From the NCBI RefSeq assembly GCF_000807675.2, contig NZ_CP019962.1, positions 2,666,001 through 2,730,000 on the forward strand: DNA of 64,000 nt, written 5' to 3'. This DNA is from Eubacterium limosum (GTDB lineage Bacteria > Bacillota > Clostridia > Eubacteriales > Eubacteriaceae). Below are positions 2,157 to 59,107 of this stretch, in pieces. The position numbers were made by a program, and so were the translations under genes. Position 1 is the first letter of the stretch; each line of letters begins with the position of its first letter. The notes under the pieces are model-generated. The model saw only the letters and a list, made by a program, of their open reading frames with translations. It ran no database searches and was not told the DNA's origin.

Positions 2157-3803
2157 TCAATCTTCATGAAACAAATCAGCTTCTTTTTCATAGATAGCAT
2201 AAGCGGAGGTCTCATTATGCTTGGCATCGTACATGGCCTCATCAGCCTGGCGTATCCACTGGCTGCGGTTAATGGTATCATCCTTGAGGAAAGTGATCCC
2301 CAGACTGGCAGAAAGATTGACAGGGTGCTCCCTGAGATTTTTAATATTTTCGATATTCCGAAGGATATTTTCCGCTAAATCCAAAACATCCTTTGGATTT
2401 GAATAATTATTGATAAATATCAGGAATTCATCACCGCCCAGACGGGCAGGGAAAACATTATCGCTGGCAATGCCCTTTAGAATTTTGGCCACAGCATTGA
2501 GTGCGGCGTCGCCCATATGATGTCCGAAGGTATCATTGATGGTTTTAAAACCGTCAAGGTCAAAAAGAAAAAGAGCCTGATTGTTGTATTTTCTGAACAG
2601 CGTGTCCATTGTGTGATAAATAGACTTACGGTTTGGAATGTTGGTCAGCCCGTCAATATAAGCCGACTTCTTTAAAAGTTCATTTGTTTTTACCAGCTCA
2701 TGCTTGCTGATTTCCAGGGTTTCAGTCATCTGATTGATGTTGTCAGCCAGCTCGTGAAACTCATCGTCTCCTGGAATTTCACAGCGCACAGAAAAGTTTT
2801 CATGCTGAATCTGCTTGATCTTTTCGGTCAGATAGGTAAGAGGGTTTGTAATGGTTTTGGCAAGCTGAATTCCGATAAACAGAGCGACCAGTGTAATCGT
2901 CAATGTAGTGAGAAGCAGCATGGTCTGCAGGGTGTTGGCCTCTTTAAAAACCTCGGTTTGCGTCATACAGACAACCACGACCCAGCCAGAGGTAGGGATC
3001 TTTTCGTAATTGGCAATAACAGGGGTACCATCATAGTTATAGGTAAAGAATCCAGTGTTGCTCTTTAGTCGGTTGTTTTCAACATCGGATATGAACTTTT
3101 TCAGATCTGCGTCATTATTGAGGGCGTTCTCCTGACTTTCTTCTGAGGAGAGACCTTCCTCCATAATTGTAGAAAGCTGTTTGGCCTTGGAGTCCAGAAT
3201 ATAGACATAGCCGCTGTCGCCCACCTTACGCTGGCTGATCTGCTGGTTAATACTTCCAATACTGACATTGCGGTTTAAAATTCCGATGGGTTTTTGGGAA
3301 GTATCGTATATCTTTATGGCCAATGCGAGGCATTTACTGCCGTTGGACGGCGTGTCCACAACTTCATTGTAGGAATCCTTGTTTTGCTCAATCAATGTTT
3401 TGAACATGCTTGAATCCCTCACGTTTGTCCCCTGATAATTAGGGTCCGATGAAGCCACGACATTTCCGGACAGGTCGATGATTGAATTGCGATTGACAAC
3501 GCTGTTTGTTTTAGCGCTGATGTTCAGGAGCTGCTGCGCCGGCTCCAGGAGCTCAGAGTTTGACGGATCGCTCAGACTCTTGGCGAAAGCGGGAATCTGA
3601 GCTGTGAATTCCAGATCATCCATTTGTGTTTTGTAAAACTCTTCCAGATAGTTGGCGATGGATTCAGAAACATCTGACAGGGCCTGCTTTCGCATCTCCA
3701 AAGAGCTTCTTGACATATAAATGCTTATAATGGAAGATAATATTAAAAGCGGTATCACCACTAACAGAATCATTAAAAGGGGGAGCTTTCTTTTTACTTT
3801 CAA
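2157..3803 (-). CDS. Membrane diguanylate cyclase (dCache-HAMP-GGDEF)
   Basis: Makes c-di-GMP from two GTP in response to an extracellular signal. Order: an N-terminal membrane segment (LLMILLVVIPLLILSSII), an extracytoplasmic region of about 250 residues with dCache-like features (WVVVVCMTQTEVFKEA just before the second membrane segment), a second membrane helix, a HAMP segment with ITNPLTYLTEKIKQI, and a C-terminal GGDEF domain with intact RLGGDEFLIF. The usual RxxD inhibitory site before GGDEF is not visible (IASD instead), so product inhibition may be absent. The start is taken as TTG at 3803-3801, 11 bases after GGAGG (3815-3819); a longer frame opens at TTG 3836, but then the ribosome site would lie inside the gene. 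Signal unknown. Confidence 0.85.
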   Translation of the reverse strand: MKVKRKLPLLMILLVVIPLLILSSIISIYMSRSSLEMRKQALSDVSESIANYLEEFYKTQMDDLEFTAQIPAFAKSLSDPSNSELLEPAQQLLNISAKTNSVVNRNSIIDLSGNVVASSDPNYQGTNVRDSSMFKTLIEQNKDSYNEVVDTPSNGSKCLALAIKIYDTSQKPIGILNRNVSIGSINQQISQRKVGDSGYVYILDSKAKQLSTIMEEGLSSEESQENALNNDADLKKFISDVENNRLKSNTGFFTYNYDGTPVIANYEKIPTSGWVVVVCMTQTEVFKEANTLQTMLLLTTLTITLVALFIGIQLAKTITNPLTYLTEKIKQIQHENFSVRCEIPGDDEFHELADNINQMTETLEISKHELVKTNELLKKSAYIDGLTNIPNRKSIYHTMDTLFRKYNNQALFLFDLDGFKTINDTFGHHMGDAALNAVAKILKGIASDNVFPARLGGDEFLIFINNYSNPKDVLDLAENILRNIENIKNLREHPVNLSASLGITFLKDDTINRSQWIRQADEAMYDAKHNETSAYAIYEKEADLFHED

Positions 3804-3885
3804 AATATGTGTCACCTCCAGGAGATTTCTACCCAACTCTACTTTATTTTAACACAAGTTTAACGAGAGTAAAAATAAAAAAAGA

Positions 3886-3914
3886 TTGACATTATTCTCT
3901 CAAACACGTATAGT
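3886..3914 (+). promoter_or_regulatory. Promoter of the corA leader
   Basis: TTGACA at 3886-3891 and TATAGT at 3909-3914 with a 17-base spacer. Transcription would begin near 3921, about 190 bases ahead of the corA start codon, leaving a long leader. Confidence 0.75.
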
Positions 3915-3940
3915 AGGTAGAGGGCACAATCCTAAACAGT

Positions 3941-3968
3941 ACCTTCATGTTTTATGTGAAGGTTTTTT
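3941..3968 (+). terminator. Early terminator in the corA leader
   Basis: ACCTTCA (3941-3947) pairs with TGAAGGT (3957-3963), followed by a run of six T. It lies only about 20-45 bases after the predicted transcription start, so most transcripts could end as a very short RNA unless read-through is favoured. It fits an attenuator, but no known riboswitch fold was recognised in the bases before it. Confidence 0.6.
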
Positions 3969-4008
3969 CTTTGTGATAAGCCCTTAAGATACAAAAAGGA
4001 GTGATATT

Positions 4009-4095
4009 ATGGACGCAGACCCTGGAGAGAAGCGCTTACTAAAATTGAATAATCAAGCGGTCATAATATCAGCATATATTTTGACCGCTTTCTAA
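4009..4095 (+). CDS. 28-aa leader peptide upstream of corA (MgtL-like start)
   Basis: A small ORF with a good ribosome site (AAGGAG, 7-base spacer) ending 14 bases before the corA start. The product begins MDADPGEKRLLKL and is otherwise undistinguished. This resembles the enterobacterial Mg-sensing leader peptide MgtL ([17 protein letters not shown]), which also starts with an acidic residue, then D-P, then a basic RxLKL stretch; acidic/proline starts are known to destabilise translating ribosomes at low magnesium. The last codons are part of the stem regions that can expose or hide the corA ribosome site. No homologue search was done; the coding assignment rests on ribosome site, position and peptide resemblance. 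Confidence 0.55.
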   Translation: MDADPGEKRLLKLNNQAVIISAYILTAF

Positions 4096-4111
4096 CGAGG
4101 GAGGTCAAAAT
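4055..4111 (+). promoter_or_regulatory. Alternative hairpins controlling corA translation
   Basis: Two exclusive structures share the same bases. AAGCGGTCA (4055-4063) pairs with TGACCGCTT (4082-4090). Alternatively ATTTTGACC (4078-4086) pairs with GGTCAAAAT (4103-4111), which covers part of the ribosome site GGGAGG and the first two bases of the corA ATG. The first would leave corA open and the second would shut it. Confidence 0.5.
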
Positions 4112-5042
4112 GATCAATATTTACAAAACGATTGATGGAAAAATTGTAGAAATTGATGAAATTGAAAAGCATGCCTGGATTAACATGGTAAATCCCACAG
4201 AGGAAGAGCTTCTGTCAATTTCAGATCAATTAAATGTAGAAGAGGATTTTCTCCGTGCCGCACTGGATGAAGAAGAAATCTCACGTGTCGAGCTTGATGA
4301 GGATATGAATCAGGCATTAATAACCATCGATGTACCCATAGTGGATAAAACCTCACAGATGGTTTTATACAGTACCATACCGGTTGGGATTATCGAAACC
4401 CATGAGAACATTATAACGGTCTGTCTGCAAAGCAATACCATTATCGATGACTTTGCAAAGGGCCGGGTAAAGCATGTTTTTACAAATCTGAAAACCCGGT
4501 TTATTTTTCAGATGCTTTACCGTGTTGCGACCCGGTTCCTGGTTTACCTGAGACATATTAACCGAATGAGCACCGAAATCGAGAAGGAACTGCATCGTTC
4601 GATGAAAAACAAAGAACTTATCCAGTTATTGGATTTGGAAAAGAGTTTGGTGTTCTTCTCCACTTCATTAAAAGCGAACCAGTCCGTGCTTGAAAAGCTT
4701 CAGCGGGGGCGTGTCATCAAGCTTTACGAAGATGACCGCGAGCTGTTAGAGGACGTGCTGATTGAAGTGGAGCAGGCCATTGAGATGTCCAATATTTACA
4801 GCAATATTTTGAGCGGTACGATGGATGCTTTCGCGTCGATCATTTCAAACAACTTGAATATTGTAATGAAGGTTTTAACCTCCATTACAATATTGATGGC
4901 AATACCAACAATGGTCTCAAGCTTTTATGGAATGAACGTTTCGGGCCTGCCGTTTGCTAATTTTGGAGCAGTTGTGATTATCGTTGTGATCCTAACCGCT
5001 TTGGTAGCAATGATATTATTCAGAAAAAACATGTTCTCATAG
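4110..5042 (+). CDS. corA: CorA-family divalent metal (Mg2+) transporter
   Basis: 310-aa CorA-family channel for Mg2+ (or Co2+/Ni2+), active as a pentamer in the cytoplasmic membrane. A long acidic cytoplasmic N-terminal domain is followed by the stalk helix and two C-terminal membrane helices; the hallmark YGMNVSGLPF (GMN selectivity loop) sits between them near residue 283. The ATG at 4110 follows GAGGGAGGTC. It has a dedicated promoter, an early terminator, a leader ORF and competing hairpins, which together suggest control by a metal or by translation. Monocistronic: the next promoter follows directly. Substrate Mg2+ is inferred from the family and leader. Confidence 0.9.
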   Translation: MINIYKTIDGKIVEIDEIEKHAWINMVNPTEEELLSISDQLNVEEDFLRAALDEEEISRVELDEDMNQALITIDVPIVDKTSQMVLYSTIPVGIIETHENIITVCLQSNTIIDDFAKGRVKHVFTNLKTRFIFQMLYRVATRFLVYLRHINRMSTEIEKELHRSMKNKELIQLLDLEKSLVFFSTSLKANQSVLEKLQRGRVIKLYEDDRELLEDVLIEVEQAIEMSNIYSNILSGTMDAFASIISNNLNIVMKVLTSITILMAIPTMVSSFYGMNVSGLPFANFGAVVIIVVILTALVAMILFRKNMFS

Positions 5043-5091: not shown

Positions 5092-5118
5092 GTATACAGA
5101 AAATTAAATGATATGTCT

Positions 5119-5240
5119 GTTTCAGGGCGAGGTGTAATTCCTCACTGGTAGTGATGTGCGAAGGAGCAATAAGTCTACGAGCCGAAAGGCCGATCTGGTT
5201 AGAATCCAGAACCAACGGTATAGTCCGGATGAAAGAAATT
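5119..5240 (+). promoter_or_regulatory. FMN riboswitch (RFN element)
   Basis: The conserved RFN blocks are present in order: TTCAGGGCGAGGTGTAATTCC, CACTGGTAGT, GTCTACGAGCCGAAAGGC, GATCTGGTTAGAATCCAGA and AACGGTATAGTCCGGATG. The three-letter core and spacing match the class closely. It binds FMN and is followed by an intrinsic terminator, so FMN should stop transcription into ribU. Confidence 0.95.
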
Positions 5241-5264
5241 AGCACAGTTGATGCGCTTAGTATT

Positions 5265-5332: not shown

Positions 5333-5896
5333 ATGAACGTCAAAACGAAGACGATCACTCAAATGGCGGTATTGGCAGCGATGTCCATACTATTGGTCTA
5401 CTTAATTCACTTTCCAATTTTCCCGGCAGCTCCTTTTTTAGAGTATGATCCGGCGGATATCCCCATTTTGATCGGTACATTTATGTTTGGGCCGTTAGGT
5501 GGCCTGGTTTTAACAGCGGTTGTCTCTATTTTACAGGGATTAACGGTAAGTTCGGCCAGCGGTATTATCGGCATTATGATGCATTTCTTTGCGACGGGAA
5601 GCTTTGTCCTAGTGGCAGGCAATATTTATAAGAAGCATCGTACACGGAAGGGCGCTGTTGTTGGACTGCTCTTTGGAGCCCTGGCAATGACGATCACAAT
5701 GGTTATCTGGAATCTGATTTTCACACCGCTGTTTATGGGAACACCAATTGAGGCGGTTATAGCAATGCTCATTCCAGTCATTATACCATTTAATTTAATT
5801 AAAACAGGTGTCAATGCGCTCATTACATTTATTGTCTACAAGTCTGTATCAAAGGTGTTAGGCATGGAAATCAAAGAAACAAAGCTGGCTGAATAA
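5333..5896 (+). CDS. ribU: Riboflavin ECF transporter, substrate-binding S component
   Basis: 187-aa hydrophobic protein with about six membrane helices; the start (KTKTITQMAVLAAMSILLVYLI) and the block FLEYDPADIPILIGTFMFGPLGG are characteristic of RibU. It captures riboflavin and works with the shared ECF energising module (ATPases and T component), not encoded here. Placement behind an FMN riboswitch supports the substrate. ATG follows AGGAGGTATC. It is a single-gene unit ended by its own terminator. Confidence 0.93.
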   Translation: MNVKTKTITQMAVLAAMSILLVYLIHFPIFPAAPFLEYDPADIPILIGTFMFGPLGGLVLTAVVSILQGLTVSSASGIIGIMMHFFATGSFVLVAGNIYKKHRTRKGAVVGLLFGALAMTITMVIWNLIFTPLFMGTPIEAVIAMLIPVIIPFNLIKTGVNALITFIVYKSVSKVLGMEIKETKLAE

Positions 5897-58995: not shown

Positions 58996-59019
58996 AGAAG
59001 ACAGTTATAAATATAATTG

Positions 59020-59107
59020 ATATCAGGGCAAATCTGTTGAAAGATAGAGACGCAAAGCTAAAGGGCCTAAACAAACATAAATTGTAGGGCAGCCAGCTGC
59101 AGTTGAA
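59020..59107 (+). promoter_or_regulatory. c-di-GMP-I riboswitch (GEMM)
   Basis: The core blocks are present in order: CAGGGCAAA, GAAAGATAGAGACGCAAAGC, GGGCCTAA, GGCAGCCAGCTGC. The two-helix layout with GAAA-type tetraloop and the receptor side matches class I. It ends about 20 bases before the start codon. ATTGTAGGG (59081-59089) can pair with CCCCACAAT just before the AGGAG site, so control may act at translation. Confidence 0.88.

Follow-up and report, generated by a model that had tools for sequence, protein, structure and literature searches.

What does a short open reading frame (ORF) do between a strong promoter and the gene for a magnesium channel? This question is raised by the corA locus in the stretch of Eubacterium limosum DNA analysed here (64,000 nt of contig NZ_CP019962.1, hereafter the window), which comes from a 4.42-Mb Eubacterium genome whose CorA is 100% identical to the CorA of genome G023. 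A sequence-only reading of the locus had proposed that the ORF encodes an MgtL-like leader peptide, and that the progress of ribosomes along it, set by Mg2+, decides which of two mutually exclusive hairpins forms in front of corA.

Layout of the corA leader

The strong promoter, the early intrinsic terminator and the 28-codon ORF with a good ribosome site that had been described in this leader are all present (Table 1). The promoter boxes are also visible by eye in loci L005 and L006 and in the diverged L007, and transcription probably starts near position 3921. The stem of the early terminator is kept in L005, with one G-U change, and in L006. At what is, by eye, the matching position in Acetobacterium, a terminator follows an M-box Mg2+ riboswitch; judged from this position, the early terminator of the window may be a leftover of an M-box terminator.

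Table 1. Features of the corA leader, in window coordinates
Feature	Position	Strand	Remarks
Promoter TTGACA-17-TATAGT	3886–3914	+	11 of 12 consensus bases
Early intrinsic-terminator-like hairpin, followed by T6	3941–3963	+	Upstream of the leader ORF
Ribosome-binding site AAGGAG of the leader ORF	3996–4001	+	
Leader-peptide ORF, 28 codons, MDADPGEKRLLKLNNQAVIISAYILTAF	4009–4095	+	Start MDADPGEK conserved in relatives
Codons 2–5 (DADP)	4012–4023	+	Aligned with EPDP of MgtL; proposed ribosome-destabilising site
Segment 1, covering the leader start codon	4002–4011	+	Pairs with 4062–4071 in naked RNA
Segment 2	4055–4071	+	4055–4063 with 4082–4090 (open form); 4062–4071 with segment 1 (closed form)
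Segment 3	4077–4092	+	Pairs with segment 2 (open) or with 4097–4112 (closed)
Segment 4, corA ribosome site GGGAGG (4099–4104) and ATG	4097–4112	+	Hidden in the closed form
corA, Mg2+ channel	4110–5042	+	PF01544, 172 bits

Several other elements were observed in the window. A divergent gene on the minus strand (2157–3836) adjoins the corA promoter and encodes dCache, HAMP and GGDEF domains, and a c-di-GMP-I riboswitch lies at 59017–59104. Within the corA coding sequence there is a terminator-like inverted repeat of 17 pairs on the minus strand (4857–4894). Directly 3′ of corA, an FMN riboswitch (5114–5244) is followed by a gene for an ECF riboflavin-type S-component (5333–5896), and the same order of corA and FMN riboswitch was seen in the three Acetobacterium loci scanned (L012, L013 and L019). 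Elsewhere in the window's own genome, the second CorA gene (L002) has no such leader by eye, and a search for mgtE found none.

The start of the leader peptide is conserved upstream of corA

Relatives of the window genome carry the same leader ORF in front of corA. It begins with MDADPGEK, MDADPGDK, MDADPGEN or MEADPGEK in Eubacterium and Acetobacterium, where it stops 13–16 nt upstream of corA, and within the same family it starts with MDADPGEKS in genus g4 and with MDSDPCEK or MDGDPCEK in genus g8. One g3 locus (L030) reads MEDGP, and no such leader was found upstream of corA in the other g3 locus (L031) or in genus g5 (L029). The C-terminal part of the peptide changes freely among these family relatives. 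The proposed likeness to MgtL has to be divided: E. coli MgtL reads MEPDP and the window leader MDADP, with acidic and proline codons at equal positions among codons 2–5, and this part stands, whereas the RLLKL part does not, as Acetobacterium has RIEQ, RISQ or RIKQ there. Since RLLKL is not conserved in relatives, we rejected any likeness to MgtL beyond codons 2–5.

For a wider view, we compiled 220 corA upstream regions from Clostridia, 202 of them distinct (of 142 corA match rows, 120 upstream regions were taken, seven were already in the set, ten were omitted and five were fragments or weaker second matches). When every ORF preceded by a sufficient ribosome site was admitted, the start M-x-x-[D/E]-P was present in 85 of the 202 regions, compared to 7 of 1010 shuffles. 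With the ORF picked solely by its ribosome site, 79 of 201 regions had M..[DE]P, as did 3 of 1004 shuffled ones. By the same rule, M...P without an acidic residue 4 was found in 18 of the 201 regions and neither motif in 104, while P5 in any form came up 35 times in the 1004 shuffled regions. Some leaders escape either rule, for example those with GTG starts within longer frames (MSPDP) and ORFs that overlap corA (MKPDP in L140, L153 and L154).

At least 15 anonymous family groups contain the motif (f1, f23, f26, f30, f34, f39, f45, f53, f56, f58, f62, f67, f74, f76 and f85), with a weak ribosome site in f39. Leader length varies from 12 to 56 codons across loci, and 77 of 106 leaders start with ATG and 29 with GTG, but the frame and the position of the motif behind the ribosome site are kept. 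The commonest feature of all is P5, in leaders that usually contain one or two prolines.

Other leader starts were seen as well. Residue 5 is altered in MECDTG (L059 and L065), MDSGHG (L104) and MDNDSG (L111), which may be drifted or differently tuned versions; L065 still lies behind an M-box. A further start that is acidic and lacks proline recurs before corA in L206, L210 and L220 (MAVDQGQVENIDI/MALDQGEVENIDV/MAVDQGEVENIDI) and possibly represents another leader class. In L106, where the leader reads MDSGPEHS, a fluoride riboswitch (1734–1805) was detected downstream of corA.

The motif marks Mg2+ transporter genes

In the window's own genome, the combination of a ribosome site and MDxDP occurs once, at the corA leader of the window. 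Across 391 genomes of the class, the pattern GGAGGTG..ATG-GAY-NNN-GAY-CC was found in 13 places and its xPDP version in nine, and the reversed-pattern controls had no match in the same genomes. Ten of the 13 and seven of the nine (17 of 22 in total) lie directly upstream of corA, which is partly expected because the patterns were designed after the corA loci had been seen; three more, independent in this respect, precede mgtE (MDFDPLPS, MDSDPLPG and MSPDPDSK). A Mg2+ transporter gene thus lies downstream of 20 of the 22 matches, and of the remaining two, one begins a trypsin/PDZ (HtrA-like) protein and the other is a small ORF (L247).

The M-box riboswitch provides a second connection to Mg2+. 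It was found upstream of corA in all 17 Acetobacterium (g2) genomes with a corA match, in the order M-box, terminator, leader ORF, corA. A scan of 76 corA sources and three mgtE sources with Rfam, not a random sample, placed an M-box ahead of the leader in 12 and two of them, respectively. Among these 12 corA sources, the leaders of L065 and L089 lack D4-P5 and that of L070 reads MDEGP; in the mgtE locus L122, about 420 nt separate the M-box from the leader downstream of it. No M-box was found at corA of the five Eubacterium (g1) genomes, and a scan of 3750–4130 for a remnant in the window leader gave none, even at E-values of up to 5. That M-boxes precede the same leader and that its targets are Mg2+ transporters makes Mg2+ the likely signal for the corA leader of the window, by analogy with these loci.

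Two further leaders were inspected. In the Acetobacterium locus L013, a GC-rich repeated insert (GCGAAGGCAACGAGCC) lies between the terminator of the M-box (980–1143) and the leader ORF (1396). The only M-box of the window's genome precedes a P-type cation ATPase (L256, features at 268–426 and 531–750, near 2038667 of the genome), with an acidic leader ORF (MDIGREKGIGPGRAEEAVEEP) between the two and a pairing of TGTCTTAAC/GTTAAGACA over the ribosome site of the ATPase gene. As a candidate for the same switch, this leader was rejected because its ribosome-position profile is not switch-like.

The prominence of P5 could also be the mark of an amino-acid attenuator, in which stalling at codons 4–5 would sense charged tRNA for proline or aspartate and Mg2+ transport would be secondary. 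Effects of proline on mgtL are mentioned in the available part of one report (PMC11552253). We regard such an attenuator as quite improbable, as it would leave the restriction to Mg2+ transporters, seen in 20 of the 22 genome-wide matches, unexplained; moreover, the leaders usually have one or two prolines only, and their partner element, the M-box, is a Mg2+ riboswitch.

Constraint at codons 4–5

At the level of codons, conservation of the start that had been read as DADP turned out to be mixed. Residues D4 and P5 are kept with differing codons: over the 106 loci, D4 is encoded by GAC in 70 and GAT in 14, and P5 by CCT in 82, CCG in 14, CCC in six and CCA in four. Together with the alternating ATG and GTG starts, this argues that more is kept than a fixed DNA word. 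At the same time, usage is biased towards GAC-CCT. In 34 representatives of sequence-sharing clusters, codon 4 is GAC in 22 and GAT in four and codon 5 is CCT in 21, compared to 191 GAC and 276 GAT and to 66 CCT among 224 proline codons in the coding sequences of 30 corA genes. This over-use indicates that part of the constraint acts on the nucleotides, and selection on the peptide alone at codons 2–5 is not proven.

Folding predictions suggest a role for these nucleotides. In the naked leader of the window, the predicted pairing between codons 4–5 and the corA ribosome site has a mean probability of 0.66, and 12 of the 94 loci folded with a model ribosome (see below) exceed 0.3. When the window RNA is masked up to 4008–4017, CCCU at 4020–4023 (codons 4–5) can pair with AGGG of the corA ribosome site. 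We read codons 4–5 as a peptide signal that may also serve as an anti-ribosome-site in some loci, including the window.

Taken further, the codon bias and the pairing in the window could point to an element acting at the level of RNA, in which GACCCT and the hairpins would form an anti-ribosome-site or a binding site for a metal or a protein and the peptide would be incidental. The leader is indeed structured, folding better than its shuffles as a whole (z = −2.55, 1 of 200 as good). However, no pairing of codons 4–5 with the corA site above 0.3 is predicted in 82 of the 94 loci, and 13 of the 34 cluster representatives use proline codons other than CCT. The motif also holds its frame and position with either start codon, D4 and P5 match MgtL residue by residue, and a search of Rfam gave no family matching the window's corA leader at gathering score. 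We therefore consider an incidental peptide unlikely.

Competing folds of the leader RNA

The two mutually exclusive hairpins proposed earlier, one of them hiding the corA ribosome site, can both be formed. The open form contains a helix between segments 2 and 3 (2:3; Table 1). In the closed form, segment 3 pairs with segment 4 (3:4), with 4077–4086 bound to 4103–4112 and 4088–4092 to 4097–4101, so that both the corA ribosome site and the ATG are hidden. A third helix, absent from the sequence-only reading, joins segments 1 and 2 (1:2) and hides the start codon of the leader in naked RNA.

In 22 aligned relatives, 90.4% of the cells of the 2:3 helix pair and 12 double-sided cell changes were counted. 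The pairing percentage, the number of double-sided cell changes and the covariation score were each reached by 0 of 500 shuffles, and slid controls gave 27–61% pairing. Two weaker measures were not unusual, namely the number of pairs with a double-sided change (reached by 72 of 500 shuffles) and that of further pair types (374 of 500). The open stem thus covaries, whereas the Eubacterium version of the closed stem does not extend to Acetobacterium, where 60.6% of the cells of the 3:4 helix pair. The closed helix of Acetobacterium itself (CUCUU:AAGGAG, five pairs, about −7 kcal/mol stacking) is weak. A search for ungapped helices found 45 of 109 loci at p ≤ 0.05; this search misses bulged stems, which is why Acetobacterium looks weak in it and why the ribosome-mask test was used instead.

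Ribosome position and accessibility of the corA ribosome site

In this test, all RNA behind the front of a model ribosome (its leading edge) was barred from pairing, and the energy needed to open the corA ribosome site (opening cost) was computed; the folding energies are models and the ribosome mask is simple. The starting set consisted of 109 loci, 106 of them corA loci picked for a start of the form M..[DE]P or MD..P and three of them mgtE loci. After removal of 15 whose ORF lay >170 nt upstream, 94 of the 109 were left.

For the naked leader of the window, the opening cost was 10.2 kcal/mol. It was 7.6–9.1 kcal/mol with the leading edge at 4008–4017, fell to 3.1–4.3 kcal/mol at 4023–4056, rose to 11.0–12.7 kcal/mol at 4059–4080 and fell again to 2.9–3.7 kcal/mol at 4089–4092. 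The computed accessibility therefore agrees with the proposal that early loss of the ribosome would favour the open structure (3.1–4.3 kcal/mol), and shows closure (11.0–12.7 kcal/mol) with the ribosome further along the leader. Because the naked leader also folds shut, the open state would require a ribosome on the first codons or, alternatively, a kinetic trap, a situation similar to the one suggested for mgtQ of Salmonella. Assuming that the leading edge precedes the P-site codon by about 15 nt, corA would be shut once ribosomes are past about codon 12–15, whatever the length of the ORF.

A similar profile was computed for most of the other loci. The cost with a late ribosome exceeded that with an early one by 4.97 kcal/mol on average over the 94 loci, compared to 0.89 kcal/mol in shuffles, and the difference between naked RNA and an early ribosome averaged 2.80 kcal/mol, compared to −0.62 in shuffles. 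At least 19 of 20 shuffles were beaten by 70 of the 94 loci on the first measure and by 66 on the second; counted as 34 sequence-sharing clusters, 24 passed the first, 20 the second and 18 both. At comparable distance, 93 corA loci without the motif had a mean of 0.94 kcal/mol, and 9 of the 93 exceeded 3 kcal/mol, as opposed to 72 of the 94 with the motif. In a finer scan, a gain of at least 3 kcal/mol was seen in 73 of 94 loci and in 41 of 564 shuffles; the closing edge fell 45–60 nt downstream of the leader start in 64 of these 73 loci and 18 of these 41 shuffles. The same alternation appears in distant Clostridia whose sequences are unrelated. In these models, the window and 70 of the 94 loci are predicted to form incompatible structures, with the position of the ribosome tipping the balance between them. 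Lack of conservation of the ORF or of either stem among close relatives had been named as evidence against the sequence-only proposal; the conserved ORF start, the covarying open stem and the recurring alternation point the other way.

Ten of the 34 clusters failed, namely MNPDPGSQ (L093), MKPDPSGE, MGTDPYGS, MDADPYNS, MDHSP/MDTSP, MDEGPGLY, MDDGP/MDEGP (L050 and L054), MTADPCGRY (L092), genus g8 (in which L027 passes and L028 fails) and the mgtE locus L122. The mgtE loci tested failed singly, with 13 of 20 shuffles as high for L122 and four of 20 for L123. For a further mgtE locus beyond the length limit of the test (L248), the raw profile is switch-like (9.4, 3.5 and 10.5).

The low cost at the end of the ORF, 2.9 kcal/mol when the model ribosome has reached the stop codon (edge 4092), bears on another explanation, translational coupling, in which ribosomes that finish the leader would unfold the closed hairpin and start anew on corA, with corA following translation of the leader positively. 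This would suit the short spacing in Eubacterium and Acetobacterium and the position of the edge at the stop, which lies beyond the closed interval in 50 of the 70 switch-positive loci. Yet the corA site stays closed with a ribosome at the stop in 20 of the 70, the stop varies in position from overlapping corA to >120 nt upstream, and coupling predicts neither a conserved xxDP start nor a 2:3 helix. We thus judge coupling to be a rather unlikely account, even though the leader of the window, with its stop 14 nt before corA, could also allow terminating ribosomes to reinitiate. Very improbable is a constant brake, that is, a conserved leader without dynamic regulation that would set a low constant level of CorA; the existence of two competing folds, one of them kept by covariation, and an alternation that recurs in unrelated sequence would be hard to explain in this way.

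A proposed model for Mg2+-dependent control of corA

Weighing these readings, we conclude that the leader probably is a translation-abort Mg2+ attenuator, in which low Mg2+ would abort translation of the leader early and lead to translation of corA, and enough Mg2+ would shut corA. Ribosomes would start on the leader ORF and, at low Mg2+, be destabilised by the nascent M-D-A-D-P chain, so that they stop or are lost on the first codons. Ribosomes that are still early in the ORF or have just initiated would cover these codons without reaching segment 2, so that 2:3 could pair, the corA ribosome site would be freed and CorA would be made. At sufficient Mg2+, ribosomes would pass about codon 12–15 and occupy segment 2, and 3:4 would then close the corA site and turn CorA off. 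A leader on which no ribosome initiates would be closed as well, either by 1:2 and 3:4 or by codons 4–5 on the corA site.

The model combines the conserved ORF start, the covariation of the 2:3 helix, the computed three-state accessibility and the association with corA, mgtE and the M-box with steps taken from analogy, namely that MxxDP would destabilise clostridial ribosomes, that Mg2+ would set this and that low Mg2+ would be the on state. Confidence in it, and in the broader reading that follows, is lowered by the bias at codons 4–5 and by the mgtE loci that fail the switch test.

For the class as a whole, we lean towards a widespread ribosome-based Mg2+ sensor of Clostridia, built on M-x-x-D-P leaders before corA and also mgtE and on a three-state ribosome-site switch that was computed for corA. 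It would often act alone and, in some lineages, behind an M-box as a translation gate following a transcription gate, with Eubacterium corA among those without an M-box, and would have its counterparts, whether convergent or very ancient, in enterobacterial MgtL and mgtQ. If so, Mg2+-dependent instability at early acidic-proline codons would be a sensing principle shared between phyla and relevant to Mg2+ sensing in bacteria generally. The clostridial leaders would then offer a natural series for testing which residues matter, and acetogens and many other anaerobes would have an extra regulator of Mg2+ uptake.

Comparison with known systems

Hallmarks of the translation-abort class of leaders are ribosome drop-off at the motif, enhanced at low Mg2+ and countered by bL31, and a rise in transporter expression at low Mg2+; the window leader would be expected to show both. 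Like other members, it places a short ORF and its ribosome site immediately before a Mg2+ transporter gene, and it has conserved acidic residues and a proline within the first five codons. In MgtL, for which drop-off at EPDP (codons 2–5) at low Mg2+ is described in the available part of one study (PMC11282234), M-E-P-D-P aligns with M-x-x-D-P, low-Mg2+ ribosome loss turns a transporter on and the hairpins are exclusive. MgtL proper, however, lies upstream of mgtA and, according to the available text, acts through Rho-dependent termination of transcription, whereas the gene downstream of the window leader is corA, on whose ribosome site the leader would act according to the computations.

In the logic of its segments, the leader is closer to mgtQ of Salmonella mgtB, where acidic codons near the start shift the balance from 1:2 and 3:4 to 2:3 and thereby free the mgtB ribosome site, as far as the accessible sections of the paper describe it (PMC8092293). 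Both have a short ORF that begins with acidic codons and precedes a Mg2+ transporter gene, control at the level of translation, a ribosome site hidden by 1:2 and 3:4 and free in 2:3, and early abort as the proposed on switch. In the same sections, mgtQ itself has eight codons, lies between mgtC and mgtB and carries Asp2 and Glu5 with Pro4, in contrast to the clostridial leaders, which have 12–56 codons, belong to the 5′ leader of corA or mgtE, and carry DP at codons 4–5. The sequences compared show no relationship between the two.

Control of corA by a leader ORF is in itself already known from corL of enterobacteria. If E. coli ysgD is corL, as we take it to be, its peptide reads (M)DTPSRYW, with P at codon 4 and without xxDP, and the system, in the part of its description at hand, is Rho-dependent and gammaproteobacterial; the window leader does not encode a peptide of this type. 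The available portion of the corL report states that translation of this ORF represses corA and that it is Mg2+-responsive in E. coli (PMC11552253). Another conserved corA leader is the gammaproteobacterial corA motif, a riboswitch candidate that is reported, in the accessible part of the source, only from Gammaproteobacteria and metagenomes (PMC6429828). The M-box (ykoK, RF00380) is likewise a Mg2+ element and lies upstream of the leader at corA of Acetobacterium and some other Clostridia and at the mgtE loci L122 and L123; it differs in being aptamer-based and is absent from the corA leader of the window.

In the openly licensed PMC literature, we recognised no treatment of a leader ORF of clostridial corA or mgtE, which is weak evidence of absence, and in the partial texts found there, ribosome instability at early acidic-proline codons serves as a Mg2+ gauge in enterobacteria only. 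By analogy with these systems, and with no evidence of common descent, the window leader appears to combine the acidic-proline codon position of MgtL with the segment logic of mgtQ, in another phylum, with other targets and at another level of control.
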